Positions 2,601-63,561 of a stretch of DNA of 64,000 nucleotides are shown here, piece by piece. The DNA comes from Labia minor (taxonomy: Eukaryota; Arthropoda; Insecta; Dermaptera; Spongiphoridae), in assembly GCA_963082975.1 (NCBI GenBank), contig OY720347.1, positions 14,056,225 to 14,120,224 on the forward strand, given 5' to 3'. The number at the start of each line of letters is the position of its first letter. The stretch's first letter is position 1. The translations under genes were made by a program, and so were the position numbers. The notes under the pieces were generated by a model. It did not search any database. It was not told where the DNA came from and saw only the letters and a list, made by a program, of their open reading frames with translations.

Positions 2601-2637
2601 ATATACAGATTTCAATATGTATGACAATATATTAAAC

Positions 2638-2926: not shown

Positions 2927-2929
2927 TAT

Positions 2930-7790: not shown

Positions 7791-7794
7791 TATT

Positions 7795-8775: not shown

Positions 8776-8935
8776 AAGTTACCATTATACGAGTATAGGT
8801 ACAAAATATATACATATTATTATTAATACATACTTTGTAATTGCAAATATTTTGCGAATAAAAAATTTAAAGCAATAAAATTTTTTATTACATCCTTCGT
8901 TAGGACAGTAAAATATATATTCTAACATGTCTGGC

Positions 8936-8986
8936 CCCCAGATCTGTAAAATTTTTATACTTGAAAAAAGTTTGCCGACCCCTGCA
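8936..8986. repeat. hAT-type right-end fragment
   Basis: TCTGGCCCCCAGATCTG then AAGTTTGCCGACCCCTGCAT is a typical hAT right end. No left partner is seen. Confidence 0.5.
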
Positions 8987-9956
8987 TTAAATGAAAGACT
9001 AAAGAAATATATTTGTTACTATATTTTTCTTTTGAGAATTTATTTGTGATTTGTGCAACTTTATTCGTTAATTGGTAGTTAAATCAGCAAATAATAATAC
9101 TACTACTTTTAATAATAATAATAATTACAACTATGATACAAACTACCCCATGGAGTATGATATATAATAAAAAAAAAATTATTGAAAAAATGAAATGCGA
9201 TTTAACTCAATTTGCTAATTAATTAAAGTTTTTTTTGTTCTTATTCTTATTTATTAATATAATATGATTAGTTGTATTATTAATATGAAAACAATCTTTT
9301 TAACTTATCATTATCTCAGAAATTTATTTAATTAAAATATCTACTAAAAAAAAATTAATTAATAAACTATTAGTTTCGAAAGCGAATTTTTTTTAGTTCA
9401 AGGCGTTTTATTTTATTATTATTATTATTATTATTAATATTTTGTATGAGTTTGGAAATTTTTCTTGGGGGAGGTTCAAAAATTGTAAATATAATATAAT
9501 GAGAAATTTTAATTAGACTTTCCCCTTCATTTGGATATTTTTTTTAATATAAAAAATCATTGAATGTTATTAAAATAATAATAATAATAATAAAAACGAT
9601 ATCTATTATCTTGTCTTCGAGTGCAAATAAATTGAACAGTTCTAAGAAAAATGTCTGTGGTGTGTTTATAGATTTAAAATGATGTATGAATATATTAAGC
9701 CAAGAGTAAATATAAAAGTGACTTTAAGCTTTTACTTTTATCCTAGAAGAAAGGCATCATTCAAACGACAACAAATGATATCACACTCAGCAGCAAGAAT
9801 GGTATTAGGCGATGACGGGGCAACTAACAGATAAATTTTCAACGAGAAGTTTGCTATAATAAAAATCACCAGATTAGCTCGAGATCGTTAAATAAAATGT
9901 TATGTGTATGTGTGTGTGTATGTTTGAGAGGGAGAAAGAGAGAGAGAGGAAGAGTG

Positions 9957-9987
<31 letters not shown>

Positions 9988-10076
9988 TTTTACATCGAAG
10001 ACAACATTGAAAAGAGGTTTTTGTGAGTGACGTTTCCTGAATAAATTCAAAACATGTTGGTGGTTAGTGGTGTCTA

Positions 10077-10081
10077 CTTAC
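10077..10081 (-). promoter_or_regulatory. 5' splice donor of the FHOD exon
   Basis: On the minus strand the exon ends TCCAA and the intron begins GTAAGTAGAC, a strong U1-type donor. It fixes the 3' edge of the exon. Confidence 0.85.
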
Positions 10082-10191
10082 TTGGATTGGAAGCCTTCGA
10101 ACTCTTCCTGTTGTTCGTTGATGGAGGCCTCGAGGTCCAGGTAAGCGCCATAATCCCCGTCTTTGTATAACTGCAGGGCTGTGTCATCCAA
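10082..10191 (-). CDS. Fhod: Internal exon of a FHOD-family formin (N-terminal region)
   Basis: Read on the minus strand, a 110-bp open exon lies between an acceptor (pyrimidine-rich tract ending TTGCAG, 10192-10211) and a donor (GTAAGTAGAC, starting at 10081 and reading down). It starts in phase 0 and ends after two bases of a codon. It encodes 36 residues beginning LDDTALQLYKDGDYGAY, then LDLEASINEQQEEFEGFQS. The skeleton LDD..LQL...GAYLDLEA...EQ..E.EGFQ is what I know from the N-terminal GTPase-binding/FH3 region of FHOD1/FHOD3 and Drosophila Fhos. FHOD formins nucleate and bundle actin, for example in sarcomere and stress-fibre assembly. The exon GC content is far above that of its flanks. 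No other FHOD exon is recognised; the 5' exons would lie at higher coordinates and the 3' exons at lower coordinates, in the window or outside it. The exon call is very secure and the family assignment is strong but made from memory. Confidence 0.88.
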
Positions 10192-10211
10192 CTGCAACAA
10201 ACCAAATGAAA
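10192..10211 (-). promoter_or_regulatory. 3' splice acceptor of the FHOD exon
   Basis: On the minus strand the bases just upstream of the exon read TTTCATTTGGTTTGTTGCAG, a T-rich tract with the invariant AG. It fixes the 5' edge of the exon. Confidence 0.8.
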
Positions 10212-10830
10212 CTCGATTAGAACAAAATCCCACATCAGATCAATTTGTCTCTTAATCTTAACTCGCAATTATCAAATTAAGTGGTTTAAAAGTTTAATTT
10301 GAATGTCCAACTTAAAAGAATAACTACTACCTTACGGCTCTTTTATTTGTAGATTATTATTAGATTATATGTATAGGTTTATTTTTGATATCTTGTAATT
10401 ATTAACTCTGAAACTAAATACAAGGATAAATAATACTTTAGTTTTTTTTTAACTTTAATCATTTATTTTTCTATTTACAGTTGATATAGTATTTGATTAT
10501 TTTTTCGTTTCTTTTATTTAATTTGTTGTGATTAGGAATTAATTAATGAAGTATTATTTAAATTATTCAATCAATTTAATTTAATGTTAATTTATAAAAA
10601 GTTCTCTATTGTAATATTTTGAAATGTATTGAACGCAGGTTCCTCATTACATGTTAAAATATCTTTTAGATACTATAATTACAGGATAGTTCAAAGATAA
10701 GATCAATTGAAACTAGATCCAAGAAATTTATGAAAATAATAATTACTCGTATATACATATATACTAGCTATAATAATAAAAAGTGTTTAGATACACCTAT
10801 AAAAGTACCTATAAATAGTACAAAAATTAG

Positions 10831-11102
10831 CTGGAGTGTCTCCACTCGACTATCTCGCAATTTAAAATGGAATTAATAACATAATATATTATATTTAAAT
10901 TAAATTTTATTAATTATAAATTATAAATTAATTTTAATAAATAATATTTATTAAACCAGCGCATGTTGGCTCTTTGTTGATGGACCACGTCACGTGTTGG
11001 GGCATGATTTGCAGTGTTAAAAAATTAATTCCGGTACTTTCAGCGATTCAATCAAGCTGAAATTTTATATAGAGCAGTTTTATACAATTATTAATCATGT
11101 GT
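10831..11102 (+). mobile_element. H1 element, 5' portion only
   Basis: It begins CTGGAGTGTCTCCACTCGAC followed by the subterminal word ACTATCTCGC. It runs in step with the full copies as far as the stretch ending ATTAATCATGTG, then stops where a SINE-like sequence begins. The microsatellite and terminal hairpin are absent. Confidence 0.85.
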
Positions 11103-11321
11103 GCCGGTTATATCAATGAGGTGTCCTATGATCAGTAGAACGGATCCTCTCAACCTTTACCTTGATCTTCTTGATCGGAGGCGCTATCAAGTAGCTTTTC
11201 CCGGGGATTAGTTTGACTCCGTCCTATAGGCTAGAGAAATTCCCTTGCCAGGCCCGGGACTTGAACCCGGGGCCATGTGAATGTGAAGCAGGTTCGCTAC
11301 CCACACACCCTATGGCGTCTT
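11103..11321 (-). mobile_element. tRNA-derived SINE candidate
   Basis: The minus strand starts GCCATAGGGTGTGTGGGTAG and carries a B-box-like stem, CCGGGTTCAAGTCCCGG (11250-11275). Only the outer acceptor pairs survive, so it is not a functional tRNA. It abuts the broken H1 copy at 10831-11102. Confidence 0.6.
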
Positions 11322-11517
11322 TAAAATAATACAATAGTTTCAAATATGAATTCACATGGACATACATACTATTTTATTATTTTGAAAATCAGAGTACTTC
11401 TTTGATTAGAATAGACATTTTTTTAGGAAATTTTAACATTAATAAAAATTAAGACTATATTAAAAATTAAAAAAAAATGATTGTGAGATTCTCTAGATAT
11501 TTTATTAAACTCTAAAT

Positions 11518-11710
11518 CAGTGATTCTCAACCTTTTTTTTACCGCGGCACACTTTTAACGGTTTAAAAATTTGGCGGCACACAAAGAAGTCATATCATAT
11601 TGAAAAAAAGTGGTCCCAAAAACGGTTTAACTTTTTATTTTTTTAAGAACCAAATTGAAAAATGTAGAAAAAAAGTCGGAAATGTTTAAGAGCCTCTTTA
11701 AATATTTTTT
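11518..11710. mobile_element. hAT element, left part only
   Basis: CAGTGATTCTCAACC followed by ACCGCGGCACACTTTTAACG matches the left end of the 2638 element. It continues into a copy of the shared internal module (AAGTCGGAAATGTTTAAGAG). No right end is seen, so the 3' limit is approximate. Confidence 0.72.
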
Positions 11711-11719
11711 CTATCAACT

Positions 11720-13290
11720 ACTATACCCATTAATTTGAAATTTACAAACCTCTTGGTTTAATGTTTCGATAAGAGTCATTTGTTATAATACCAAATAAAG
11801 GACCAAGCCATATTTTATAAAAATACTCAAAATAATTTCGAAAATGTTTTTGTACTTAAAAAAGTTAAAAGGTATGTAATAAAAATAAAATTTCTATAAA
11901 ATTTATTGACAGTTATTATGATAATTGGCGAATCACTAAAGTTTATGGCAAAAAAGGGAATATTATAATGTATATATTCTAATAATAAAGAATATAAATT
12001 TTTAAAATGTGAAAGGTGGAGAAAGGGAGTGAAAAAAATTCCTTTCGAATTTTAAAAATAACAAAATACATATGTAGGAGGTAATAAAGATTAAGTTATT
12101 TTTATTTATTTATTTATTTTTTTTTTTTGAAGAAAAATTAAAATATAATCAATTAAATAGAATAATAAAAACAAATGAATTATTATTGTTCTTTAAAGTT
12201 TTCATGTCCGGATGTTTTCCTTTATTTCGAGATAGATTGGTAATCTTAATTGTAATCTTCATTCCATTCCAATTAGATAGAATTAGACATTGTAAAAAGT
12301 TCAGAAAACGAAATAGAGATTTAAAAATTCTTGTGCAGGTTGCCTCGAGGTTTGTCAAAAACCAGTATTGAAATTATACCTATACACATTGTTAAAATTC
12401 ATAATCTAATCTGTTATAAATCTACAGGTGCATCATCTATCCATATATATATATATATATATACTTACTATAAATTATAATTTTTAAAAATTTCACAAAA
12501 ATATTAATATAAAAAAAAATATAATACTATTTTTTTTATCTCACAATAACAGGATATATGTAAGTATATAACTTTCATATATAATATAATCTTTCATCTT
12601 TTATTTTTATTAAATGCTCAGTTTTAAATTTAAAATATTTTAAAATTATTTCTATTTCTTTAATTATTACATTAAATTTTTAAAATATATGTATATCATT
12701 TACTTAATTTTTATTAATATAATTAAAATAATTTATAAGTTTAATATTTATGATAAACATAAACTAAAATAACATTAAATAAAGATAAATGATAAACTTG
12801 TTAGAATAATCAGATAAATTTAATTTGTATAATCACTGGTAGACATTAAAACTTCTGAATCAGCATAAATAAGAAACAAATTTAGTTATATACATACATA
12901 TATATATATAAGATTCAACATGGAATGATTAACGAACAATCCAAGAAATATGAACAAGAAAAATTCAAAAGACCACCAAAGAACAAGTTCTTGTATCATT
13001 TGTGAAAGAACCTACGAATCATGTCGTCCAAATTCACACATGAGCCAGAATTCAATTATAACTAAAATCAAAATCTTAAATGATTACCAAACTAGACTAT
13101 CATAAGAAACAACATATTTTCTTTAGATTTTTTTTAACAAGATAACATCTTCATTCCGTTAATTTAATAATTTTACTATTTAGAAATATATATAAATTAA
13201 TAATTTAAAAATTTAAAAAGAAGATATTAAAAAAAAATAACTACATCAGATAAGTTAAATCATCACAAATTATATATCGTTATTAAAATA
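11720..13290. other. AT-rich, no gene seen
   Basis: Overlapping short ORFs at about 12149-12371 lie on both strands in AT-rich DNA and are not protein-like. An (AT)n tract lies at about 12446-12463. Confidence 0.5.
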
Positions 13291-13294
13291 AGTT

Positions 13295-13866
13295 GACCTG
13301 TGGCCAGGCTCAGAACCGACCGACGACTTGAAATAAATTAATTTCCAGTTACATAAACAATTTTAAATAATTTAAATGTATCTATTAACAATAATATTTT
13401 TAATTTTATTTTATTTATAATATATAAGGAGGCACTGGCTGTGACGTCATGAAGAGCTGGGTGACATCATATAATTGTAAATTAAGTAAAAAGTAATGAA
13501 GATGATTAAAACAATATTCGTGGAGATATGTAAAAAATATCTTCATGTGAAATTTGGTATGAAAATAAGCCTTTCCTTCCTATCGTCGATCGGTAATAAT
13601 ACCACTTCCGGTTTCCGAATATACACCAAAAGTTGATCAATTCATCATACTGATGCATTAAGTAAATATATCAAATTTTATCAAAATCCGTTGAGCCGTT
13701 CAAGCTGTACACGTATATAAGGACGGACGGACAGACATCATGCTAAAATACTTTTTTCTGTTAACAAAATGCATGATTCGTGGAGATATGTAAAAATTTC
13801 CACATGTAAAATTTGGTGTGAAAACAATAACTCCCTTACCATCGACGGTCGTTAAAAAGGAGAATT
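13295..13866 (+). mobile_element. H3 element (copy A)
   Basis: CGACCGACGA (13317-13326) near the left end is matched in inverse by TCGACGGTCG (13842-13851) at the right end, 9 of 10 bases. Between them lie TGACGTCATGAAGAGCTGGG, CCACTTCCGGTTTCCG, CAAAATCCGTTGAGCCGTTC and GGACGGACGGACAGACATCA. The layout is the same as H1/H2 but the sequence is diverged. Confidence 0.78.
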
Positions 13867-14566
13867 CTTTCTTCTTTTTCAATAAATAATATTAAGATAT
13901 AAAAATATAAAAGTTTTTATAAAATTGATAGTACTTATTAACATCACAAATTAACATTTTAATTAATAATTCTTATATGGATTATATTGAAAATTTGTAC
14001 TAAAATCTAATTTTTAGAATATATTTTCTATACATATACCTATAATATAGCTTAAAGATGATTTAATCTTTTGATTAATCAAAATGTGTTTAAATTTAAT
14101 GCTCGATAAAAAAAATTCAAACACCCAACTATTGTATTAAAATATAAAATAAATTAATCGGTTGAAATTGTTTTTTTTAATTATTATTTACTTATTTATT
14201 TTATATGATTAAGATGTAAAGTTAATAGGAAATATGGATTACTAATATTTGCTTTCAAAGATTATTATTAATAACAATTATTTAAGATGAAAGTGTTTGA
14301 TAAATTATTTCAACATTTTTAATAATATGGTTTATAATCATAAATAATAATGATTTTTTATATTTTAATATAGATAAGATACTTAATGTTTAGGTGAAAA
14401 TTGATAATAAAATGAAAATGAGTAATGAATTGGTAAATTGATTAATTTTAAAAAATATAAAAATATTTTCAAAAAATTTATAAGGAAATATCAAGTAATT
14501 TTCGAAAGTAAATAGAAAGGGAAAATAAAAAATTTTTTAAAAAAAATGTAATAGTATGTTTAATAG

Positions 14567-17995: not shown

Positions 17996-18084
17996 AGCTA
18001 GTAAATAATAATTCGTTATATTTATATTATATTTATATTATATTTATATTATTGTAGTTCAATGTTAATAAATTACTCCATAAA

Positions 18085-19944
18085 ATGGATCGTTGGCTAC
18101 AAACTGGTTCAACACAGAAACGGAAAGAATCAGATGATGAGGCATCAACAGCAAACTCTACCAAGAAACGCAAAACTAGAAAATATTCGGATGATTATTT
18201 ATCATTTGGATTTACTTATATTTGCAACAATGATGTGGAAAGACCAGTCTGCGTTCTATGTCAGGAAAGTTTATCCAATGAAAGTATGAAACCTGCTAAT
18301 CTCAGACGTCATTTACAAACAAAGCACAGCGAGCATGTTAGTAAGTCTATCGAATTTTTTAAAATGAAAAAAGAAGAACTTAATTCAAGTCAGAAATTGA
18401 TGGTAAAGACGGGATCTGGTGGTATGAGTAAGAAAGCAGTAATGGCATCATATGAAGTAGCTCTACTTATTGCTAAAGCAGGAAAGCCGCATAATATAGC
18501 AGAGCAATTAATTCTTCCTGCTACAAAAGTAATTACAAATATAATGTTAGGAACTAAAGCAGCAAACGATATAAATTTGATTTCATTATCAAATGATACG
18601 GTTAAGAATAGGATTGAAGACATGTCATGTAATATAAAAGAAGAATTAATATCGAGAGTGCGCAAAAGTCACTATTACTCATTACAATTGGATGAAAGTA
18701 CTGATGTCACTAATAATGCCAATTTGTTAGCTTTCATTAGATATGAGTTTGAAAATCAAATACAAGAAGATGTATTGTTTTGTGATTCACTACCTTCACG
18801 AACGACAGCTAATGACATATTTAACAGTTTGAATAATTTTATAACCGAAAATGAAATAGAGTGGCCAAAATGTGTTGGAATTTGCACTGATGGTGCTCGT
18901 GCAATGTCAGGTACAAGAACTGGATTGATTGCTCTTATTAAAAATGTTGCGCCTCAGGTTGTTTGGAATCATTGCTGCATTCACAGAGAATCATTAGCAG
19001 CCAAAAATATGTCACCAGATTTGAAAAGAACATTAGACGAAGTAGTTAAAATTGTCAATTTCATTAAGGCTCGTCCACTTAATTCCAGAGTTTTTAAAAT
19101 TTTGTGTGAGGAAATGGGTAGTCAACATACACATTTATTATTACATACAGATGTACGTTGGTTGTCCCGCGGGAAAGTACTCATTCGCCTTTTTGAGCTT
19201 CGAGATGAAATACGATTGTTTTTAATAGATGCGCATTTTGAACTGACCGAATGTTTCAATGATTTTATCTGGTTAGCTAAGGTGGCTTACTTGACTGATA
19301 TTTTTACAAAATTGAACGAACTTAATTTGAGCCTGCAAGGTACTGTTGTAAATATATTTAAAGTTGAAGATAAAATAGAAGCAATGATTAAAAAAATCGA
19401 CTTGTGGTCGAAACGCATCCAGAACGGTGTATATGAGTCTTTTCCAACTCTCAATGATTTCATAGAAAGCTCCAGTGAAAAATTGCTTAATCAAACGCGT
19501 CAATTATTTGTTGAACATTTAATTACTTTGAAAAGCAACTTCAGGAAGTATTTTTCTACTCCTGATCCTTGCAATAACTGGATCAGAGATCCATTTAATA
19601 TGGAAATTACAAATACTAAACATTTATCTGCACCTGAACAAGATATTCTCGTGGAATTATCATGTGATACAACTTATAAACTAAAATTTAACAAAACTGA
19701 ATTGAGCAACTTTTGGTTACTTCTCAGGTCAGATTATCCTGCGCTTGCAAATAAAGCACTTCAACACTTGATTCCATTCTGCACAACATATTTATGCGAA
19801 CAAGCTTTTTCGGTACTATTTTATATTAAGTCTAAATATAGAAACAAATTAAATGTAGAGCCGGATCTTAGATTAAAAGTTTCCAATATTAAGCCAGATA
19901 TTGAGATTCTTGTTTCAAGAAAACAACTGCATACATCTCATTAA
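18085..19944 (+). CDS. hAT-family transposase, BED zinc finger plus DDE/RNase H core (619 aa)
   Basis: This single-exon ORF is the transposase of the surrounding hAT element. It would bind the element's ends and catalyse excision and integration in the nucleus. The N-terminus is basic (KKRK at about 27-30). It is followed by a BED-type finger with C56, C59, H76 and H81, preceded by the usual aromatic stretch YLSFGFTY. The catalytic core shows D203 in QLDESTD, D269 in CTDGARAMSG, the CxxH motif C297/H300, W359 in DVRWLSRG, and E572 in LCEQAFSVL. The C-terminus (about 540-619) is the hAT dimerisation region ending KQLHTSH. Length and motif order match the ZBED5/SCAND3-like (Buster-type) transposase group. 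All core acidic residues are present and no frameshift or internal stop is seen. The start is the first ATG of this frame after the 5' repeats. An alternative is a domesticated copy, but the intact TIRs and TSD argue for a transposon. Confidence 0.93.
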   Translation: MDRWLQTGSTQKRKESDDEASTANSTKKRKTRKYSDDYLSFGFTYICNNDVERPVCVLCQESLSNESMKPANLRRHLQTKHSEHVSKSIEFFKMKKEELNSSQKLMVKTGSGGMSKKAVMASYEVALLIAKAGKPHNIAEQLILPATKVITNIMLGTKAANDINLISLSNDTVKNRIEDMSCNIKEELISRVRKSHYYSLQLDESTDVTNNANLLAFIRYEFENQIQEDVLFCDSLPSRTTANDIFNSLNNFITENEIEWPKCVGICTDGARAMSGTRTGLIALIKNVAPQVVWNHCCIHRESLAAKNMSPDLKRTLDEVVKIVNFIKARPLNSRVFKILCEEMGSQHTHLLLHTDVRWLSRGKVLIRLFELRDEIRLFLIDAHFELTECFNDFIWLAKVAYLTDIFTKLNELNLSLQGTVVNIFKVEDKIEAMIKKIDLWSKRIQNGVYESFPTLNDFIESSSEKLLNQTRQLFVEHLITLKSNFRKYFSTPDPCNNWIRDPFNMEITNTKHLSAPEQDILVELSCDTTYKLKFNKTELSNFWLLLRSDYPALANKALQHLIPFCTTYLCEQAFSVLFYIKSKYRNKLNVEPDLRLKVSNIKPDIEILVSRKQLHTSH

Positions 19945-24105: not shown

Positions 24106-24224
24106 TATTAAAAACCTTTAATCCTATGATCGGATGGAAAAAAATTTTAATTAATTTTCAAATATAGAAAAAAGCTTAATTATCCATTTCAAATTTGAGA
24201 GATAGTCGAGTGGAGACACTCCAG
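24106..24224 (-). mobile_element. H1 element (short subfamily), 5' fragment
   Basis: The minus strand begins CTGGAGTGTCTCCACTCGAC then TATCTCTCAAATTTGAAATG. It matches the short-subfamily copies at 29752 and 31497 (both share AAGCTT-TTTTCTATA) and stops after about 120 bp. The hairpin end is missing. Confidence 0.75.
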
Positions 24225-24799
24225 GGTTTTTTTTGATGACCATCACCTCTTGTAAATTAAATTTAATAATAATTGAAAGAGATTTAACTTTACTATAACT
24301 ATATCTTTAACTATAACTAAATAAAAAATAATAATAATTATTATTTATTCAATGTTTATAATTTTATTAAAATTTCTAAAAACGTGCGTGCGCTTGCTCT
24401 CCTCCTCCTCTTAAATGATTAGAATTTTTATCTTTGATATGCAATTATATTTATTATATTTTTCAATATTAAATTGTGAAAAACAAATGATCTAATTAAT
24501 CACTTAATTCTTTATAGGTGTAATAATGATGGCCATAAGTCGACTAGAAGATTATCTATAATGAAATCAAGACAGTGTGTGATGAGCTGAAAGATATTTT
24601 AATAGATACGTATATGAAATTAAGAAATATGAAGTGAGTGCTGATAGAAAAATAAAAAAACCTCTCAATTTCAGTTTAAATTTATGTTTAAAAAAAAAAT
24701 AAAAAAAAAAAAAAAATTCTGCATATTTACATTTTAATTAAAAGACAGAAATTTTAAAGATGAGATGATTCTTTCCGAAATATATATATCGATTTCGTG

Positions 24800-28660: not shown

Positions 28661-29751
28661 CTACCTATATAATCAGTTATAATAATTTATTCTTTTCATA
28701 AAAAAAATTCAATATATGTATAGTTTTACCAGTTAATAGTTTAAATAATAATAATAATAATAATGATAATAATAATAATAATACTTTTACAAAGTAAGGA
28801 TATTATTAAAGAATTTTTTTATAAAATTTATGCTATATCTTGATAAAATAAATTTTAAAAAAATTAAATGATTTTTTTTTTAAGATTCCATCCAATGAGC
28901 TGAATGAATGAATTTTGATAATCTTGATGTAATTTTAAAAAGAAATTCTCCCATCACATAGCAGTTTTTTTTTAAAGAGGACATCTTTCGAATCTTAATT
29001 AGTTTTTGTAATGGAAGTTATAAAAGAAAATATTTGTACGCATGCATGCATTAAATCTATGTTACTAGCACTCTCCGTTTCTTATTAAAACATTCTCGTA
29101 ATTATAAGAATATAAAATATTTATTAGATATAAAATAAACGAAAACTTTATTATATTAGGAGAGAAAATTGAATAATATATTTAATCCAAATTGTAAATT
29201 TTTCTATCATTAAAACAAATTTTATAAATTTTTCGTTATTATCAATGAAATAAAAAAAAAATACAAAAATACAAAAATACAAAAAAGATTAAAAAAAAAT
29301 TTAATATTTATGAACAGTTTACCATTTGGAGTCCAAAGTAAATATTAACATGTTTTTCATTTTAAAATACATTTTGAAAATCATTAAAAACAGATTAGTG
29401 GCTGGACAATAGATTTCCATGGTTTCATTTCAAGGTCAACATTATGTTGTGATAGGACCCACAAAATGATGGTCAGTTTCTTTACAATCGAGGTTCAGAA
29501 TTTAAAAGTGTAGTGCCTAATGGCTTTATTGGACCCGTGCCCGTTTGAAAAGAAGTTTTAAATTTTAAGAATTAAAATCTATTTAATGATTACTTGAAAA
29601 TAAATAGTCCTAGGTCATTGAAGAAAATTTATACAAAATTTACTTAAATCCGTTAGTAAGTAATTTAATAAAATCAAGGAATATATTACACAATATAATC
29701 CATGGATTAGAATTTCAGATTTCTTACTAAAATTATATTATCGAAAAAAAT

Positions 29752-29990
29752 CTGGAGAGTCTCCACTCGACTATCTCGCAAATTTGAATTGGATAATCAA
29801 GCTTTTTTCTATATTTGAAAATGAATTAAAATTTCATTCTATTCGATCATAGGATAAAAGGTTTTTAACACAAGCCAGCTCGTGTTTGGTTCTTTGTAGA
29901 TGACATCACATCAAAGTGTTAAAAAATTTAAAATATTAATTCTGGTACTGTCAGAGATTCAATCAAGCTGAAATTCTGAAGAGATAGTAA
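29752..29990 (+). mobile_element. H1 element, short subfamily (about 240 bp)
   Basis: It starts CTGGAGAGTCTCCACTCGAC and ends GAGATAGTAAAAA. The middle differs from the 600-bp form (GATAATCAAGCTTTTTTCTA) and lacks the microsatellite and the 3' block. The flanks on both sides also match those of the inverted copy at 31497-31738. Confidence 0.8.
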
Positions 29991-30689
29991 AAATAGTTAA
30001 TGTTCATCCTGTATGTAATCCAGAAATTACCACCACCCACAGATTTATTCAAAATCTTCTCATTAAACACCCTTTCTCGGCAAAAATAAAAAAAAGCATT
30101 TCCGTTTTTCTTCCCATGAAATATATTTAATACTGTGAAAAATGTTTTTTTTTTGTTTGTCTGAAATAATAAAAACTTTAAATTTTCATCTTCATCATCA
30201 AAACAACATCAAGAAATAATTTTGTTGTTCGTTTTAGAATATTAAAACAAAAAATAAATAAATAATTAAATAAATAAAAATATTGCAAATGCTCAACAAG
30301 TTAGGTAAGTTCTTTAGAATATTTATGGGCAACAATATATTTTAGTATACTTAATTAAAAAAAAAAATGAAAATATTTAATTTAATTTAAAATAAAAATT
30401 TTTTCCATCTATTGCAAAAATCATAAATTTATTTATATAATTATTTAACTATGTAATATACAGAATATTATGGAGTATTATTTATTCATATTCATTGTGT
30501 TGTTTTAGTGGATTATATAACAGTCAAGACCTGAATATAGTTTTAACGAGAGATCAGCAAAAGGAATTATTATTATATAGGTATATATATAACTGGTTAC
30601 TATACCAGTTTCCCTGGTTAGTAGTTTAAAAAAAAAGAATTCTCTTCTATTAAATATCGTAGAAAAGAGTAAATGGATGAGTCTAGGGA

Positions 30690-31030
30690 GGTGGTGGTAG
30701 AGTAGAGAGGGGGGTGGGGGGAGAAGAGTGAGAAATGACCGATAAATAGAAGTGCATTGGCAGCGAAAGTCACCTGTCCTTGAAGGATCTATCTTTCATA
30801 TAAACTTTATCCAAGTAACAACTTCATGAATGTCAGAGGAAGGGTATTTGGGGATTGGTTCAACACATTCCAGCCCCAATGTTAAGATTGTCTGCACAGG
30901 AGACCCACTTCCGGTTTCCTGTTATTGACCGTGCACCAGAACTGGACGTGGGAGAAGTCGGCCGGGTCTCACGCCGGAACACCGACTTCCCAGGCCTCTC
31001 AGCGTCTTCGGCTCACTGGGCTACACAATC
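30690..31030. other. Purine tract followed by GC-rich island
   Basis: A G/A-rich run (30695-30735) precedes balanced sequence with GGAGAAGTCGGCCGGGTCTC. A 69-codon plus frame (30855-31064) shows no known motif. The island lies between the inverted pair of short H1 copies. Confidence 0.4.
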
Positions 31031-31235
31031 CACCAACCAAAAAAAAAAACAACTACCTATATAAAAAAAAACTAAAACTAAACAATTCTCAACTCTAATA
31101 TCTTATGATTTTATTATCTTTATATTGCATAATTTGTAATTTCTGATTTATTGTTCACTGATTGATAGCTAAAAGGGATTTATATTTATTATTTATATTT
31201 ATTATTCACTCTAATAACTAATGTGTATATATCGC

Positions 31236-31470
31236 GGGGGGGGGGGGGGGGGCAAATATTTTTAAGCGCAGGCCAAAATAAAATTTTCAAAATGTCTCTC
31301 GGACCGGAGGACCATATTCCAAAAACACAAAACCGGACATTTGTAAATTTACCTTTTTTTTATTTTTTTTTATTTTAAAAGCCATATTGGATGAAAGATC
31401 GAAATAAGAACCAGACTTTTTTCAACGCGCCGGATAAAATAAGCAAAAGGGCCGGCTTTTGTCTACCCCT
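31236..31470. repeat. hAT-like MITE candidate beginning with a 17-G run
   Basis: G17 (31236-31252), then a body with CCGGAGGACC and CCGGACATTT, ends GGGCCGGCTTTTGTCTACCC CTATTA. The right end looks like a hAT terminus. The left end is masked by the expanded G run, so the assignment is tentative. Confidence 0.45.
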
Positions 31471-31496
31471 ATTACAGGATGAACACTAACTATTTT

Positions 31497-31738
31497 TACT
31501 ATCCGCTTGATTAAATCATTGACAGTACCGGAATTAATATTTTAAATTTTTTAACACGTTGAATGCCAATCACGCGCCAGCAAGTGACGTGGTATCATCA
31601 ACAAAGAGCCAAACACGAGCTGGCTTGTGTTAAAAACCTTAAATCGGATATAATAAAATTTTGATTAATTTTCATATATAGAAAAAAGCTTGATTATCCA
31701 ATTCAAATTTGAGAGATAGTCGAGTGGAGACACTCCAG
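31497..31738 (-). mobile_element. H1 element, short subfamily, inverted partner of 29752-29990
   Basis: It runs from TACTATCCGCTTG at the left to GAGATAGTCGAGTGGAGACA CTCCAG at the right. About 30 bp beyond each end also matches the 29752 copy, so the shared unit is roughly 31478-31770. Confidence 0.8.
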
Positions 31739-31961
31739 ATTTTTTTCGATAATATAATTTTAGTAAGAAAAGTAAATTTCAAATTTGAGTTTAAATTTTA
31801 TTTTATTTTATATTTTTTCGTATCTTTATATATATAGATATATATATATACAGGGTTCCGACCCAGGGGTGCAGGGGGTGCGGGGCACCCGGGCGGCAAG
31901 CCTAGGGGGGCGGCGCGTGCCGCCTTAAAAGTACTTATTCATTTTATGTTTTTTTAATTTT

Positions 31962-36634: not shown

Positions 36635-37204
36635 TACTATCTTGCCAGAGATAGTATTGCGATCATGAAAATTTTCGATATCGAGATTTTGATGTTTTTA
36701 TACGTTTTGAAGGTCCCTGAGTCATTTTCACTAAGGTTGAGAAAAATGTCTGTGTGACAAGATTACGCAAAAAAGGTTTGAGCTAGAATCATGAAATTTG
36801 GTTATTATTCAAAATTCGTAGTTTTCTATCAACTTTTGAGAAATGTAGCTCAACTGGAAGAGGGTCATTACCTACAACGTTTTGATTTTTTTTCCTCTAA
36901 AGTGACCGTAAAAATAAAAATATATGTTTGATAATTTTTCACATGATTAAAAATTGTATAAAACTGCTATATATAGAATTTCAGCATGATTGAATCGCTG
37001 AAAGTACCAGAATTAATTTTTTAACACTGCAAATCTTACGCGCCAAAACGTGACGTGATGCTATAAACTTGCGCTTGTTTAATAAATATTATTTATTAAT
37101 TTTAATTTATAATTTATATTTAATTAAATTTTTAATTTAAATATAATATATTATGTTATTTATTCCAATTCAAATTGCGAGATAGTCGAGTGGAGACACT
37201 CCAG
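36635..37204 (-). mobile_element. H1 element, near full length (about 570 bp)
   Basis: The left end is the hairpin TACTATCTTGCCAGAGATAGTA and the right end reads GCGAGATAGTCGAGTGGAGA plus CACTCCAG. Internal landmarks are AAAATTTTCGATATCGAGAT, a nearly collapsed GT repeat (GTCTGTGTG), TTTGAGCTAGAATCATGAAA and GCTCAACTGGAAGAGGGTCA. No ORF and no target duplication are visible. Confidence 0.88.
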
Positions 37205-37559
37205 CTTATTAAGAGTTTAGAATTGAGAAATTAAGTCTACTTTCAAAAATACAAAATTTTATATACTACTACTCGTATATATGTTATTAATAACATGAAG
37301 AAACAAAAATATTAGTATTCCATCTTTCTTAAATTATTCATTCCCCTTTTAATAATTAATAAATAAAATAATTAATAATTCAGGTTTACATTAACTGTAG
37401 TTTTAGCTTAATAAAATTTGTCTATAAATTTTCGATCAGGTTATTTTTAGGAAACGCAATTCATTATTGTTAATTTGCATTCGTTTGAAGTAATTAGCAA
37501 TGAAATTATAAAAGAAATATTTATTTTTTTTTATTTTAAAAAATGAAGATATATTTTTC

Positions 37560-37925
37560 TATGGATTATCTTCGAGTAATAGTTGCGACATTTCAGCAAA
37601 TAGTAAATAATTTTTGTTTGTTTGCAAATTGGTTAAGACAGGTAAAAGATGATGATGATCTTTTGGAGTTGAGAGGAAACGATGTGTTATTGTAGACGAT
37701 GACGTTATCGTTAACTCTTGAGCGGTCAGGTCGGGCCTATGAACCCAGGACCTCTCGACACCCAACAGGAACAGCAAATGCATCATCGATAGGGAGATAC
37801 GGAAAAGTGGTAATCGACAGAGACGAAAAATGAAGTAATCGGTTTTCGTTTGGAGGGTGAAAGCGAGAGGGAAAGGAGATAACTGGCTCGGTTTGCTTAT
37901 TGCTAGCTCTTCTCAATTTCAAACC
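37560..37925. other. Balanced-composition island
   Basis: Two minus-strand frames (37559-37786 and 37737-37922) are open but low in recognisable motifs. A TGA-rich repeat (GATGATGATGATC) occurs at about 37650. It may be a regulatory element. Confidence 0.35.
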
Positions 37926-38074
37926 AAAAATAAACTACTAAACTAAATACTTAGAAAATTTTCATTAATGATGTCCATCAATTTAAAATTTTATCAATAT
38001 TGTAATATTTTTTTATATAAATTATAAAAATTAAATATTAATCGAGATTTAAGAAATCAATTCTATTATTGATA

Positions 38075-38552
38075 CGAGGATAGGTCAATAAGTCCGTGAC
38101 TTTTTGAATGAAACACAGGATTGTGGATAAAAAATTATTTTATTTATCAACGTAGTCTCCTTTGAGCTCTATACACTTCTCCAATTTTTTTATCCCTTCC
38201 AAAAAATAAGCTTTGTTTAGGATATCAAAATGGATTTGTTTGTGAGATGATTTCATTATTAGAGTCAAATCTCTTTCCGCCGAGCCATTTCTTCATGTTT
38301 GGAAACAAGAAATAGTCACTCGGGGCTAAATCCGGAGAATAGGGCGGATGAGGGAGCAATTCCTATCCCAATTCATGAATTTTCTAGGAAATTCACTTTT
38401 TCCATTTTCATCTCCAATTACAAGTCTGCTATTAATGGATGTCAAACAAAAATTAAAAGTTCATATTTCGTCAACTGATAGTTGCCTACTGACAAGAGAA
38501 GTGTTGCCATTCAGGAAATTCAAAAAGTCACGGACTTATTGACCTGTTCTCG
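38075..38552 (-). mobile_element. Mariner element, internally deleted (478 bp), TA flanks
   Basis: The ends GAGGATAGGTCAATAAGTCC and, inverted, GAGAACAGGTCAATAAGTCC extend to GTGACTTTTTGAA and are flanked by TA. The minus strand keeps a decayed C-terminus reading roughly FLVSKHEEMARRK through KNWRSV. The N-terminal and catalytic parts are deleted. Confidence 0.87.
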
Positions 38553-39115
38553 TATATTACTCGTATAAACATTATAATCATTAGATCATTTATTAATTGT
38601 TAATATTATTATTATTATTTTCGTTAGTTATTGAAATATTAGATATATATTTTTATAATAAAATAATTATAAATTCACCACCACCCCAACCTCACTCCTT
38701 CTACACACCGACAATAACACAACAATCAATTACAATTTATTTATTAATTTATTTATTTATGGAATTAATAAAGGACAGGTGAAGGAAGTCATGAAATAGG
38801 TAATCACAAAAATAGAAGATTATTCTTCAATGTCGGCCAAGGATGGTTTCAAAGGAAGACAAACTATTATACAAATTTTAATTAAAAATTCAAGAATAGA
38901 AATAATTAACATAACCTATTATTAAATAATATAAGTATATAATCAGTTCAGTTAGGTATTTAATAATTGTATTTTAATTAAGTGCTAAAACTTGTGCAAT
39001 TATATATAAATATTTGGATATCTCTTCAATATTATCTAATATCTTTATAATTATGATAGATAAATTAGACGAAATATATTTATATTATATTTAATATTAT
39101 ATCCTTCCCATAAAA

Positions 39116-39299
39116 CATCGGTCGGGGAACCGGGGTAAATTTCCCCAAATGGGGTGAAAATGAAATTTTTGGGGGTAAAAATGATACTTTTGTGAGTAAA
39201 AAGTATATATTTTTAATTACTATTTTATAAACCATGGGGTAATATCAACTTGCACAAAAATATTTTGGGGTAATGATCAAAAAAGTTCCCCGACCGCTG
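39116..39299. mobile_element. Non-autonomous hAT element (184 bp) with exact TSD
   Basis: The ends are CATCGGTCGGGGAAC and, inverted, CAGCGGTCGGGGAAC. Both are flanked by CCATAAAA (39108-39115 and 39300-39307), a perfect 8-bp duplication. Confidence 0.88.
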
Positions 39300-39512
39300 C
39301 CATAAAATATTGAATAGAGGTATCGTATACCTATGCTATAATAACTCTAAATATGCATACAAAAATTCAATTCATTTTCATTTAAAATTTCTTTATGCTA
39401 ATTAATTTATATATGTATATCATATCACTTTCTTTGTTCATTAATAATAAAATAAATAATTTTAAAGTTAACTTGATTTTTTATTGAACTTTGAATAGCT
39501 CTTAAGAATAAG

Positions 39513-40111
39513 CTGGAGTGTCTCCACTCGACTATCTCGCAATTTGAATTGGATTAAATAACATAATATATTATATTTAAATTAAATTTAATTAATTATA
39601 AATTATAAATAATAAATATTAAACCAGGGCATGTTTGGTTTTTTATTGATGGCACCATGGCACGTGTTGGCGCGTGAGATTTGCAGTGTTAAAAAATTAA
39701 TTCTGGTACTTTCAGCGATTCAATCAAGCTCAAATTCTATATATAGCAGTTTTATACAATTATTAATCATGTGAAAAATTATCAAACATATATCTTTATT
39801 TTTACGGTCACTTTAGAGGAAAAAAATCAAAACGTTGTAGGTAATGACCCTCTTCCGGTTGAGCTACATTTCTCAAAAGTTGATAGAAAACTATGAATTT
39901 TGAATAATGCTCATGTACCAAATTGCATCATTCTAGCTCAAACCGTTTTTGCGTAATCTTGTATACATACATACACACACATACACACACACACAGACAT
40001 TTTTCTCAACCTTAGTGAAAATGATTCAGGAACCTTCAAAACGTATAGAAACATCAAAATCTCAACATCAAAAATTTTCGTGATCGCAATACTATCTCTG
40101 GCGAGATAGTA
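39513..40111 (+). mobile_element. H1 element, full length (about 600 bp)
   Basis: It begins CTGGAGTGTCTCCACTCGAC and ends ACTATCTCTGGCGAGATAGT followed by AAAA. It has a CA-rich microsatellite at about 39963-39995. It makes a good reference copy because both ends are intact. Confidence 0.9.
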
Positions 40112-40586
40112 AAACTGAAATTTATTTTAGTAGTTTATATTTGTAACATTCACAATAATATAAAATATTTAATGGTTAAAAGTTAAAAAGAAAAATCAAA
40201 TTATTATTTCTTTATGAAATTAAATATATGTCATGGAACAAGATCTATGTAGCTCGTGCATGCAAGATGCACGCAGCAGAAGTCATGCGCAGCGATGGTC
40301 CATTTATCTTTGGTGCTGATCAACCGAGAAAAGTTCTTTCCTCCTTCCCTTAACACAATGGACTAAAGTAGAGATTGAATCAAAAATATTTTATAAAGTG
40401 TAGTATTTGTATTATAATTTGAACTTAAAATAATTAGAAATAAACCAAATCTAGATAATATTTTTTTTTAAATAAATAATAATAATAGATCTCCCATCCT
40501 CCAAAAGAATATTCTTCGTTTATTAAGTTAATTTTTTTTTTAAATTATTAAAATCAATTTTTAAATCAAATAAAAGTTTGTAAATG

Positions 40587-40745
40587 ACCGGGAGCTTAGC
40601 CGCGCGGTTAACGTGACTGGTCCGCCGACGGGATCGATTCTCGTCGAGTGCGTCGATATTTAATAAAAATAAAAATAATAAACAGTTCTGAAAAAACTAG
40701 CTAAATGGAGATATATTCCGAAAAAGCCAAAAAAACAAAAATTTT
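40587..40745 (+). mobile_element. tRNA-derived SINE candidate
   Basis: CCGGGAGCTTAGCCGCGCGG contains an A-box-like word (TAGCCGCGCGG, 40597-40607), and GATCGATTC at 40632-40640 is a consensus B box. An A-rich body follows. No cloverleaf closes well, so a SINE head is more likely than a tRNA gene. Confidence 0.6.
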
Positions 40746-40956
40746 TTTTGTAAATACTAAATAATAAAAATTAAAATAAATTGAATCAAATTATTATAGA
40801 TTAATTTCTAATAAATTATTTTTTTATTTATCATCATATTAAAATAATTCTTATCTATGGGGATGTGATTTAATATTTTTTTATTATTATTTCGAGTAAT
40901 ATTTATATAAAAAATATTATATATGTTAACTTAATAATAAAATTTTAATAAATAAG

Positions 40957-41561
40957 CTGGAGTGTCTCCACTCGACTATCTCGCAATTTGAATTGGTTTA
41001 AATAACATAATATATTATATTTAAATTTAATTAATTATAAATTATAAATAAAAATTAATAAATAATATTTATTAAACCAGCGCATGTTTGGCTCTTTATT
41101 GATGGAATCATGACACTTGTTGGCGCGTGAGATTTGCAGTGTTAAAAAATTAATTCTGGTACTTTCAGCGATTCAATCAAGCATATAATCATATATAGCA
41201 ATTTTATACAATTTTTATTTTTTGTGAAAAATTATCAAACATATATCTTAATTTTTACGGTCACTTTAAAGGAAAAAAAATCAAATCGTTGTAGGTAATG
41301 GCCCTCTTCCCGTTGAGCTACAATTCTCAAAGGTTGATAGAAAACTATGAATTTTGAATCATGCCCATGTACCAAATTTCATCATTCTAGCTCAAACCGT
41401 TTTAGCGTAATCTTGTCTACATAGACACACACACACACACACACAGACATTTTTCTCAACCTTAGTGAAAATGATTCAGGAACCTTCAAAACGTATAAAA
41501 ACATCAAAATCTCAACATCGAAAATTTTCATGATCCCAATACTATCTCTGGCGAGATAGTA
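40957..41561 (+). mobile_element. H1 element, full length (about 605 bp)
   Basis: Both ends are intact, as in the 39513 copy, with an (AC)n tract at about 41425-41445. The two lie 850 bp apart in the same orientation. Confidence 0.9.
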
Positions 41562-46596: not shown

Positions 46597-46709
46597 TACT
46601 ATCTCGCCAGAGATAGTATTGCGATCACGAAAATTTTCGATGTCGAGATTTTGATGTTTTTATACGTTTTGAAGGTCCTGAATCATTTTCACTAAGGCTG
46701 AGAAAAATG

Positions 46710-46770
<61 letters not shown>

Positions 46771-47209
46771 ATGTAGACAAGATTACTCAAAAACGGTTTG
46801 AGCTAGAATCATGAAATTTGGTATTCGGGGATTATTCAAAATTCGTAGTTTTCTATCAACTTTTGGGAAATGTAGTCAAGCGGAAGAGGGTCACAACGTT
46901 TTTATTTTGTTTCCTCTAAAGTGTTTGATAGTTTTTCACATGATTAAAAATTATATAAAACTGCTATATATAGAATTTCAGCTGGATTGAATCCCTGAAA
47001 GTACTAGAATTAATTTTTTAACACTGCAAATCTCACGCGCCAACACGTGACGTGGTGCCATCAACAGAGCCAAACATGCGCTGGTTGAATAAATATTATT
47101 TATTAATTTTAATTTATAATTTATAATTAATTAAAATAAATTTAAATATAATATATTATGTTATATAATCCAATTCAAATAGCGAGATAGTCGAGTGGAG
47201 ACACTCCAA
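46597..47209 (-). mobile_element. H1 element with the longest CT/GT microsatellite
   Basis: The left hairpin TACTATCTCGCCAGAGATAGTA is intact. The internal tract (CT)n(GT)n spans about 46710-46770. The right end reads GCGAGATAGTCGAGTGGAGA, with a slightly altered last base (CTCCAAC). Confidence 0.9.
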
Positions 47210-47517
47210 CTAATTTTTGTATTGTTAATTATTATTTTTTTAATATCTATTTCAATTCATTATGTATTGTATAAAGTAAATTACTATATAATATATGTAA
47301 TAGAACTTAATAAATAATAATACATAATTATATTAATATAGGTATTATATTATACTTATTGCAAAAAAAAATTCTAAAAGAGTAGAAAGCCGTTCAAGAA
47401 GTAAAAAAAAAATCACTAAGCAGAGAGAGAGAAAAATACTATATATAAGATAATTAATTTATCCTTTGAATTTAAAAAAAAAGAAATCTAATTAAAAGTT
47501 ATATTAATCATAATTTT

Positions 47518-48106
47518 AATATCTCGCCAGAGATAGTATTGCAATCACGAAAATTTTCGATGTCGAGATTTTGATGTTTTATACGTTTAGAAGGTTCCTG
47601 CGTCAATTTCACCAAGGTTGGGAAAAATCACTGTGTGTGAGTGTATGTAGACAACATTATGCAAAAACGGTTTGAGCTATAATAATGAAATTTGGTATAT
47701 AAGCATTATTCAAAATAGTAGTTTTCTATCAACTTTTGAGTAATGTAGCTCAACCGGAGGAGGGTCATTAACTACAACGTTTTGATTTTTTTCCTCTAAA
47801 GTGACGGTAAAAATAAAGATTGCTATGTTTGATAATTTTTCACAAAAAAAAAATTGTATAAAACTGCTATATATAGAATTTCAGCTTGATTGAATCGCTG
47901 GAAGTACCAGAATTAATTTTTTAACACTGCAAATCTCACGCGCCAACAAGTGTCATGATTCCATCAATAAAGAGCCAAACATGCGCTGGTTTAATAAATA
48001 TTATTTATTAATTTTTATTTATAATTTATAATTAATTAAATTTAAATATAATATATGCTATTTAAACCAATTCAAATTGCGAGATAGTCGAGTGGAGACA
48101 CTCCAG
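47518..48106 (-). mobile_element. H1 element, second of a same-strand pair
   Basis: It is only about 310 bp from the preceding copy and in the same orientation. The left hairpin has lost its first bases (ATATCTCGCCAGAGATAGTA). The microsatellite is short (about 47630-47650). The right end is intact. Confidence 0.88.
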
Positions 48107-48809
48107 CTTATTTATTTTTTTAAAAACATGATTATATATTGTATATTATTACGATATATTACATATATATTGTAGAATACATTCAATATGTATACGTATG
48201 TATTGTATCACAAAACTAAAAAATAAAAAGGATTAAAGTGAATGAATGTGAAATCGATCTTTTCCAGCCATTTCAACTGCCTCCTTAAAGAAAGACATAT
48301 TTCAAAAATAATGGTCTCGGGCGATGTGGTGTTGAATTTCACCTTCGATTCGGATGCATTCAATATCTATCTTCTTATCTAACAACCAAGAACGCTCCCA
48401 TAAAGAAACTTGGTGTTGTTTTTGTTTTCTTTTTTTTTTATTCTTTTAACTCGTTTATGCACGTCTTTTTTTAACAAATCTTTACTCTCTCGCCCTTCTT
48501 TGTCACATATTCACCATACAATATACTAAAGCAAAACAAAATTCAAAAATGGTATAAATTCTTTATCGGTAAACATAATCATAATCAATTATGAGTATAA
48601 ATATTTAAAAAAATAAAAACGTTTGTTTGGATATTCTAGATCTCTAATCTTCAAGATACATATAATAAAATTTTCAAATTTTATTCAAGATACATTATAA
48701 TACATTATTTTATGATTATTTATTCTTTTATTGTATTAAAATAAGTGATCAAAATAAAATAAATCAAATAAATAATAAAAAAATAACGAGATTTTATAAA
48801 TAACTAAAT

Positions 48810-52682: not shown

Positions 52683-53305
52683 TACTATCTCTGGCGAGAT
52701 AGTATTGCGTTCACGAAATTGTTAGATTTTGATGTTTCTATATGTTTTGAAGGTTCCTGAATCATTTTCACTAAGGTTGAGAAAAATGTATCTCTCTCTC
52801 TCTCTGTGTGTGTGTATGTGTGTTCATGTGTGTATGTATGTAGACAAGATTACGCAAAAACGGTTTGAACTAGAATCATGAAATTTGGTATACGGGCATT
52901 ATTCAAAATTTGTAGTTTTCTATCAGCTTTTGAGAAATGTAGCTCAACCGGAAGAGGGTCATTACTTACAACGTTTTGATTTATTTTCCTCTAAAGTGAC
53001 CGTAAAAATAAAGATATATGTTTGAAAATTTTTCACATGATTAAAAATTATATAAAACTGCTATATATAGAATTTCAACTTGATTGAATCGCTGAAAGTT
53101 CCAGACAGAATTAATTTTTTAAAACTACAAAATCCCACGGGCCATCACGTGACGTGGATCCATCAACAAAGAGCCAAACATGCGCTGGTTTAATAAATAT
53201 TATTTATTAATTTTAATTTATAATTCATAATTAATTTAATTTAAATATAATATATGCTATTTAAACCAATTCAAATTGCGAGATAGTCGAGTGGAGACAC
53301 TCCAG
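52683..53305 (-). mobile_element. H1 element with inverted hairpin loop
   Basis: The full-length copy has a (CT)n(GT)n tract at about 52790-52850 and an intact right end. Its left hairpin reads TACTATCTCTGGCGAGATAG, whereas other minus-strand copies read TACTATCTCGCCAGAGATAG. The loop is flipped relative to the body. Confidence 0.88.
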
Positions 53306-53814
53306 CTTATTTTAAAAAAAAAAAATATTTTAGTTATTTTCTATATAAAAATACAATTTTTAATCAAAAACAAATATTGAAAATGACATCATCGATTATA
53401 TATGATACACTATTAATATGTAATATTAAGGATAAATATACTTTACTAATATTTTGAATTTCAGAGAATTAAATATTATTAGTATATTAGATTCTTGACT
53501 TTGAAAGATCAATTGACTTTCATTACGTTACTTTTTGTATTCATAGTATTGAAAAATTTGAAGTCAAAAGAAATTTTAAATATAATAATCGCTTTGCAAT
53601 ATGTTCGTTTATTTGATGTTATTTCAAAATTTTGTCATAAATTCTAGTCATCGAGAGTTGTTTTGTGGAATAAATGAAAAAAAAAAAATAATAATCTTAA
53701 TTGTATTTTTACTGTAAGATAACTATAGTAATAACTTTAATTTATAAAGATTTCAAATAAAAGACTAATACAACAAAGAGAATGTTATTCTGGTGTGAGT
53801 TTAAAAAAAAAAAA

Positions 53815-54378: not shown

Positions 54379-55288
54379 TACTATCTCGCCAGCGATCACG
54401 AAAAATTTCGATGTCGAGATTTTGATCTTTTTATACGTTTTGAAGGTTCCTGAATCATTTTCACTAAGGTTGAGAAAAATGTGTGTGTATGTGTGTGGGT
54501 GTGTGTATGTGTGTGTATGTAGACAAGATTACGCAAAACGGTTTGAGCTAGAATCATGAAATTTGGTATACGGGAATTATTTAAAATTCGTAGTTTTCTA
54601 TCAACTTTTGAGAAATGTAGCTCAACCGGAAGAGGGTCATTACCTACCACGTTTTGATTTGTTTTTCCTCTAAAGTGACCGTAAAAATAAAGATATATGT
54701 TTGATAGTTTTTCACATGATTAAAAATTGTATAAAACTGCTATATATAGAATTTAAGCTTGATTGAATAGCTGAAAGTACCGGAATTTTCAAATTGCATT
54801 ACCAATGATAATGATGAATTGTGATTTTAAATATTATCTAGTAGATTGATAAAATTTTAAAGTTCAATTTTTAGATTTTTTCTTCTTTTTTTAAATTATA
54901 AATTAGTAATTATGATATACTTGTAATTTAATAATTTTTATTATTATTATTATTACCTATCACCTTTTCATTTTTTTTCCTCTTTAGTGACCGTAAAAAT
55001 AAAGATATATGTTTGATAGTTTTTCACATGATTAAAAATAGTATAAAACTGCTATATATAGAATTTCAGCTTGATTGAATCTCTGAAAGTACCGGAATTA
55101 ATTTTTTAACTCTACAAATCACGCGCCAGCTCGTGATGTGCTGCCTTCAACAAAGAGCCAAACATGCGCTGATTTAATAAATATTATTTATTAATTTTAA
55201 TTTATAATTAATTAAATTAAATTTAAATATAATATATGTTAATTAATCCAATTCAAATTTGCGAGATAGTCGAGTGGAGACACTCCAG
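54379..55288 (-). mobile_element. H1 element, broken and partly duplicated
   Basis: A hairpin half (54379-54787; the hairpin has lost its second arm) and a CTCCAG half (about 54975-55288) flank about 185 bp of unrelated AT-rich DNA. About 110 bp starting GACCGTAAAAATAAAGATAT is present in both halves. It is either two truncated copies side by side or one copy with an internal duplication. Confidence 0.8.
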
Positions 55289-55436
55289 CTTCTATTTTTT
55301 AAGAAACTTAAAATAATTCTTAAATAAAGAAACTATAAAATGTTTTGTTTTACATATAAAAAAAACAGAATAAATTTTTAAATGATAAGATTATAAAAAT
55401 TATTATATTAGTCAGATAATATTATTTATTTATATA

Positions 55437-63261: not shown

Positions 63262-63561
63262 TAAGTCTTCACTCGACTATCTCGCAATTTGAATTGGATT
63301 AAATAACATAATATATTATATTTAAATTAAATTTAATTAATTATAAATTATAAATTAAAATTAATAAATAATATTTGTTAGCGCAGCTAATGGAACCACG
63401 TCACGTGTTGGTGCGTGATTTGCAGTGTTAAAAAATTAATTCCGGTACTTTCAGTACAACCTTAGTGAAAATGATTCAGGAACCTTCAAAACGTATAAAA
63501 ACATCCAAATCTCGACATCGAAAATTTTCGTGATCGCAATACTATCTCTGGCGAGATAGTA
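63262..63561 (+). mobile_element. H1 element, internally deleted (300 bp)
   Basis: The 5' end is slightly damaged (TCTTCACTCGACTATCTCGC) and the 3' hairpin ACTATCTCTGGCGAGATAGT is intact. About 300 bp including the microsatellite are missing between CTTTCAG and TACAACCTTAGTG. Confidence 0.87.

Follow-up and report, generated by a model that had tools for sequence, protein, structure and literature searches.

A repeat of about 610 bp, termed here H1, recurs in both orientations throughout a 64-kb stretch of the Labia minor genome (the window: C5:14056225-14120224, 26% GC, in a genome of 604 Mb and 71 contigs), and poses the question of which class of transposon it represents and which element provides the protein that moves it. 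A preliminary description, made from the letters of the window, had placed H1 among the non-autonomous Helentron derivatives of the HINE/DINE-1 type, and both its layout and the ends and protein domains of a longer element, termed E1, agree with this class. Our conclusion, to which we assign a probability of about 0.88, is that H1 is a HINE (i.e., a gene-less deletion derivative of a Helentron), with E1 as its autonomous form or a close relative. The basis for this is directly observed: H1 and E1 share their ends, these ends and the E1 gene are in like orientation, the E1 protein has the corresponding domains, and copies are inserted in T-runs.

Abundance, anatomy and strand of H1

H1 is a dispersed repeat whose exact end 20-mer occurs 7,331 times (3,760 + 3,571) across the whole 604-Mb genome, against 0 occurrences of a reversed-pattern control. 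Within the window, its subterminal word GCGAGATAGT is matched 21 times with at most one mismatch (0.88 expected; 0 of 100 shuffles reach 21), and the end 20-mer, with at most three mismatches, 11 times (0 in shuffles; 0.00 expected). All 12 places at which H1 had been reported in the window indeed contain H1-related sequence, but those at 29752 and 31497 are not separate insertions: because 29749-29988 and 31498-31741 share one inverted duplication, the 12 places amount to at most 11 insertions. The reported absence of open reading frames (ORFs) also holds, as full copies contain no ORF of at least 110 codons, and the six such ORFs in the window all lie outside full copies. Rfam and ARAGORN scans of the window gave no match, IMG/VR contained no exact match to a 25-nt H1 end word (records near the source genome may be left out of it), and searches of the literature with H1 end words returned chance-like matches among the matches listed. 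No source that we found names the family (curated repeat libraries lay outside the comparison); the family appears to be new, and its kind is known.

We derived a consensus of 612 bp from 22 two-ended copies in 29 sequences totalling 286,180 bases (the window and loci L001-L028); six of these copies lie in the window. The copy at 52684 was excluded, as its 5' hairpin has the opposite direction. From left to right, H1 consists, between flanking T-runs, of a 5' subterminal inverted repeat (subTIR) ACTATCTCGC, the sequence CAGAGATAGT holding a complementary inverted repeat (IR), about 90 bp, a microsatellite TGTCTGTGTG near consensus position 111, about 400 bp, the 3' subTIR GCGAGATAGT, CGAG, a palindrome TGGAGACACTCCA and GCTTA. 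The two subTIRs match exactly over 10 bp in the consensus, in line with the earlier remark that one hairpin arm is the inverse of the subterminal word at the other end. The strand, however, has to be reversed relative to the preliminary description: its 3' hairpin is the 5' end of H1, and its 5' start is the 3' end, so that subTIR plus complementary IR form the 5' end, and subTIR plus palindrome the 3' end.

The 5' hairpin (ACTATCTC ... GAGATAGT) folds as DNA with an energy of -8.0 (z -3.4 relative to mononucleotide shuffles); the last 45 nt fold with an unremarkable energy (z -1.1). In 55 of 61 right ends the arms of the palindrome are complementary throughout; these ends were retrieved with a pattern that itself included the palindrome. 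As had been described, the microsatellite varies in length: the longest GT-type run spans 7-38 nt across the seven near-full copies in the window, three of which contain an exact TGTCTGT. Because the 3' subTIR lies about 22 nt inside the element, the subTIRs are not classic terminal inverted repeats (TIRs). Among 82 matched elements, 39 have only the right end, 22 both ends and two only the left end, an excess of right ends that is biased because loci were picked for the exact right-end 20-mer. Kimura two-parameter (K2P) distances to the consensus fall between 0.029 and 0.084 in 19 of the 22 copies, and the remaining three are at 0.115, 0.167 and 0.657, the last of which is probably a misjoined pair.

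Read on the reversed strand, H1 corresponds to the definition of HINEs and DINE-1 elements in the relevant passages of PMC4067079, PMC7492417 and PMC2374699, and because of this layout we assign H1 to the HINEs and E1 to the Helentrons. As described in those passages, DINE-1/INE-1 of Drosophila and other HINEs share with H1 the subTIRs, an IR beside the 5' subTIR followed by a GTCY-type microsatellite, a 3' subTIR followed by a palindrome, insertion into T-runs without clear duplication, the lack of an ORF, high copy number and an autonomous Helentron partner. H1 differs from them in that it constitutes another sequence family, has subTIRs of 10 bp as opposed to the published 11-15 bp, places its 3' subTIR about 22 nt from the end (38-60 in a mite element), and contains a short GT/GTAT microsatellite and, in a typical copy, no central tandem array.

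E1 and its relatives

A Rep/helicase-encoding element with H1 ends had been proposed as a test of this class, and E1 has both ends and such a frame. A search with profile PF14214, in which 126 candidates were scored, yielded 104 matches in the genome and 0 in 14 control genomes; a scan of the 29 sequences used for the consensus found no Rep or helicase motif. Of four long-frame Rep/helicase loci that were fetched, one (L032) contains the H1 right end. The other three, L029 (2,039 codons), L030 (1,652) and L031 (1,785), contain no full left or right end in about 9.9 kb of each, with a lone subTIR-like word (one mismatch) at position 8014 of L029. Together with its neighbour L033, L032 makes up E1 (G000:C1 47874777-47862611, minus strand, 12,167 bp).

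The left 515 bp of E1 are 91% identical to H1 consensus positions 1-487, the following 237 bp are 95% identical to positions 278-514 (there is a 204-bp tandem duplication within the first ~746 bp), and the last 39 bp are identical to positions 573-611; T's adjoin both ends. Among the loci compared, the best match to the left 515 bp is the window copy at 39510..40110 (90.9%). The E1 frame extends over 2,181 codons without a stop (6865-13407 of the E1 stretch), in the direction of the reversed H1 strand, as the reversed reading predicted. E1 is the autonomous form of H1 or a close relative of that form.

Scanned whole (threshold E 0.001), the 2,181-codon frame yields DUF6570, Helitron_like_N (1.3e-23), PIF1 (PF05970; 1.9e-31) and helicase C-terminal motifs. 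Its Rep motif reads RGSPH, as do those of L031 and two E1 relatives introduced below (E2 and C60), and the two canonical Helitrons L029 and L030 read RGLPH; according to the rule stated in the part of PMC4067079 on this motif, S marks Helentrons and L marks Helitrons. An apurinic/apyrimidinic (AP)-like endonuclease is predicted in a separately scanned C-terminal piece (Exo_endo_phos_2, PF14529; 7.9e-5), with the motifs YQNINSL, AETL and GDFNIN in order; a PDB search with this piece gave one chance match only. Autonomous Helentrons of mite, Culex and Drosophila, as portrayed in the corresponding passages of PMC4067079, likewise encode Rep (RGSPH), PIF1 helicase and, C-terminally, an AP-like endonuclease in a single long ORF, and have ends common to short derivatives. 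Beyond these, E1 has a 21-residue repeat near its N-terminus (a 63-bp tandem repeat) and, after the endonuclease, a weakly scored C48/Ulp1-like domain.

This putative protease at the C-terminus would be the only unusual feature of E1. Peptidase_C48 scores 9.8e-4 and 19.5 bits in the separate C-terminal piece (Pfam cut-off 20.7) and gives no hit with the whole protein at E 0.001; SENP8 is the top PDB match by sequence for the last piece (E 0.0046), and in E1 the residues H, D, Q and C occur in that order, among them H2083, D2098 and C2137. E2, a broken copy, has N in place of this D, which makes the C48 reading slightly less probable. VTD and OTU deubiquitinase domains occur in Helentrons described in PMC9741609, which from the sections concerned resemble E1 in carrying a cysteine protease of the ubiquitin or ubiquitin-like (Ubl) type on a Rep/helicase/endonuclease element, with the E1 domain nearer to Ulp1/SENP8 (C48) than to either. 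We tentatively suggest, at somewhat less than even odds, that in the E1 lineage a C48 (Ulp1/SENP8-like, CE-clan) protease was fused behind the endonuclease, as a third independent kind of ubiquitin/Ubl protease in Helentrons beside VTD and OTU. No C48 domain in a Helentron appears in titles or abstract starts among the matches listed in the open-licence literature, which is weak evidence of absence.

E1 is not the only copy of its coding cassette. A protein search, in which 22 of 1,837 candidates were scored (so that counts are lower bounds), gave 34 matches, including E1-like copies that are 77-98% identical in pieces (E2 at C1 ~44.69-44.70 Mb, one on C60 and one at C10 37.19 Mb) and several relatives at 31-60%. 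Among the scored candidates, only E1 matches all 2,181 residues in one open frame; the reading frames of E2 are broken. E2 is 98.8% identical to E1 over 5,171 bp (98.6% over 6,384 bp with more sequence), and its right end is that of E1 (99.2% over 249 bp), with different flanks that diverge right after CTAATTTTA. E2 lacks about 1 kb before this end (E1 13441-14449), the stretch up to E1 13538 being kept in the C10 copy at 94.7%; because C10 holds part of it, E1 did not simply gain the whole ~1 kb. The locus L039, upstream of a 52%-identical relative, showed no match to H1, E1 or the E1 protein. Truncated E2 adjoins a second Helentron (L037, G000:C1 ~44701000-44706500), which has about 55-60% protein identity to E1 and stops in its frames.

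Insertion sites and competing explanations

At least TT precedes 24 of 28 H1 left ends, and at least TTTT precedes 18 of 28 (per-site background 0.145 and 0.029), in a set that includes at least two flipped hairpins caught on the wrong strand. Right ends are of the CTTA type in 37 of 61 cases, of which 34 are followed by at least TT. A clean paralogous empty site in L025 reads CAATTA-TTTTT-ATC when empty and CAATTA-TT-[element ending CTTA]-TTTTT-ATC when filled: the gain may be a TT duplication of 2 bp, or the T's may belong to the element, an ambiguity that the DINE-1 authors also faced, as related in their discussion of insertion sites (PMC2374699). Neither consistent target duplications nor classic TIRs, which the preliminary description had named as findings that would speak against it, were seen in the few sites examined, and the ambiguity at L025 is 2-3 bp at most. 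A 1,165-bp sister HINE-like element (L001 ~1685-2850; subTIR ACTTTCCCGC) of the same layout lies within an H1 copy, where the homopolymer run around it has two extra bases (A6 to 3+5); sequence related to it also lies inside E1.

Several findings weigh against the assignment of H1 and E1. The subTIRs are one base pair short of the published range, and the E1 endonuclease, at 22.9 bits, is under the Pfam cut-off of 27.4 and does not appear when the whole protein is scanned at E 0.001. Because its left-end identity is 91%, E1 need not be the exact source of H1. Both H1 ends occur in one element only, E1: the left end of E2 is missing, its place adjoining the other Helentron (55-58% identical); the C60 copy has other upstream sequence, its match to E1 ending 546 bp before the contig end with no right end; and the C10 copy shows no right end in the ~550 bp past the end of its match. 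Two copies therefore link the right end to the cassette, and one links the left end. Of four spanning candidates for an empty site, L025 alone is clean: L008 is weak though suggestive, and L003 and L028 consist of low-complexity sequence. L025 would also fit a 3-bp duplication of ATT, should H1 end at CTT. However, A is the fourth base after the CCAG of the palindrome in 45 of 61 right ends.

The alternative that survives best, although we consider it unlikely, is that E1 is a chimera, formed when a Helentron cassette inserted into an H1 copy or recombined with one, and that H1 has its true partner elsewhere, in a different element. This would fit the restriction of both ends to E1, the matches to other dispersed repeats in the stretch from the H1-like left part to the ORF (element positions ~700-3080), and the lack of a left end in E2, but not the finding that two copies, although their flanks differ, have the right end linked to one and the same cassette. 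In addition, a 124-bp segment (E1 3335-3458), situated 66 bp inward of the H1-left part of E1, is linked to the cassette in E2 as well (96%); because about half of it matches dispersed repeats elsewhere at 80-89%, this link is weak, and our confidence in the main conclusion is slightly reduced by the partial overlap of this left-side support with a dispersed repeat.

Very improbable is that H1 is a miniature inverted-repeat transposable element (MITE) moved by a DDE transposase, with ACTATCTCGC/GCGAGATAGT as TIRs and TT or ATT duplicated at the target. The 10-bp inverted repeats, and the two T's or A's gained at both the L025 site and that of the sister element, are readable in this way, and a TT duplication was once argued for DINE-1 (PMC2374699). 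MITEs of DDE transposons have TIRs at both ends, whereas the 3' repeat of H1 is subterminal, ~22 nt inside the end and ahead of a palindrome, a complementary IR accompanies the 5' repeat, and the element sharing the H1 ends encodes a Rep/helicase. Canonical Helitrons, with 5' TC, 3' CTRR and an A|T target, do exist in this genome (L029 and L030, RGLPH), but descent of H1 from one is hardly credible, as H1 has other end sequences, sits in T-runs and shares its ends with an RGSPH element, and, save for the lone word in L029, none of its ends occurs in ~9.9 kb each of L029, L030 and L031.

Window copies and proposed mechanism

The window contains seven near-full-length H1 copies, along with shorter derivatives (Table 1). 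In one of them the 5' hairpin at 52684-52703 reads as the common form ACTATCTCGCCAGAGATAGT in reverse complement, as though flipped, and the insert in the copy at 54380..55291 consists partly of duplicated H1 sequence. The miniature at 29749..29988 partly retains the 5' subTIR and has lost the IR and microsatellite. It lies, with its counterpart, in an inverted duplication (29706-31784) with arms of ~310 bp, one H1 miniature per arm and a spacer of ~1.5 kb; the arms (29706-30013 and 31473-31784) match in the outside flanks too.

Table 1. H1 copies and their parts in the window, on the strand of the Helentron reading (5' subTIR/IR first)
Feature	Position	Strand	Remarks
H1 copy, both ends	36636..37207	+	572 bp
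5' subTIR ACTATCTTGC (usual form ACTATCTCGC) and complementary IR GAGATAGT of this copy	36636..36655	+	hairpin
3' subTIR GCGAGATAGT of this copy	37177..37186	+
3' palindrome TGGAGACACTCCA of this copy	37191..37203	+
H1 copy, both ends	39510..40110	-	601 bp
H1 copy, both ends	40954..41560	-	607 bp
H1 copy, both ends	46598..47211	+	614 bp; GT array 38 nt
H1 copy, both ends	47518..48109	+	592 bp
H1 copy	52684..53308	+	625 bp; 5' hairpin loop in opposite sense (ACTATCTCTGGCGAGATAGT)
H1 copy	54380..55291	+	912 bp; internal insert ~310 bp, lacks 11 bp of 5' hairpin
H1 copy	63262..63560	-	299 bp; internal deletion, left end intact, right palindrome degraded
H1 copy without left part	10829..11101	-	consensus 335-611 only
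H1 miniature	29749..29988	-	~240 bp; inverted-duplication arm
H1 miniature	31498..31741	+	~240 bp; other arm of inverted duplication
Fragment, miniature type, with 3' end	24107..24227	+	24143-24224 matches the consensus (BLAST)

Other mobile DNA is present as well. Within the window, a 628-codon open frame (18058-19944) resembles, by eye, what we take to be a hAT-type/ZBED transposase, and an element-like stretch with inverted terminal sequence (AGGTCAATAAGTCCGTGACTTTTTGAAT...) at ~38080-38555 looks like a mariner-like remnant. Elsewhere in the genome, a Helitron frame of 1,537-1,652 codons occurs with an identical score (2.6e-55) at seven places (on G000:C9, C10, C1, C2 and C5), which suggests recent spread; one of these places is L030, a canonical RGLPH Helitron.

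The route by which H1 and E1 would transpose is drawn from the Helentron family. The Rep (HUH) domain would nick the element, the helicase would peel one strand from the 5' end, and the 3' palindrome would act as terminator, after which the single-stranded copy would be inserted at a T-run that the AP-like endonuclease may have nicked. H1 would contribute ends only and borrow the protein, and its microsatellite would grow and shrink.

H1, whose exact end word occurs 7,331 times in a single genome, thus gains an identity as a HINE and a candidate driver with two ends and one frame, and its orientation, insertion rule and partner become testable. The C48-like domain of E1, if real, would add a third protease class to the ubiquitin-system enzymes borne by Helentrons, and would strengthen the idea that removal of ubiquitin-like tags aids rolling-circle transposition.

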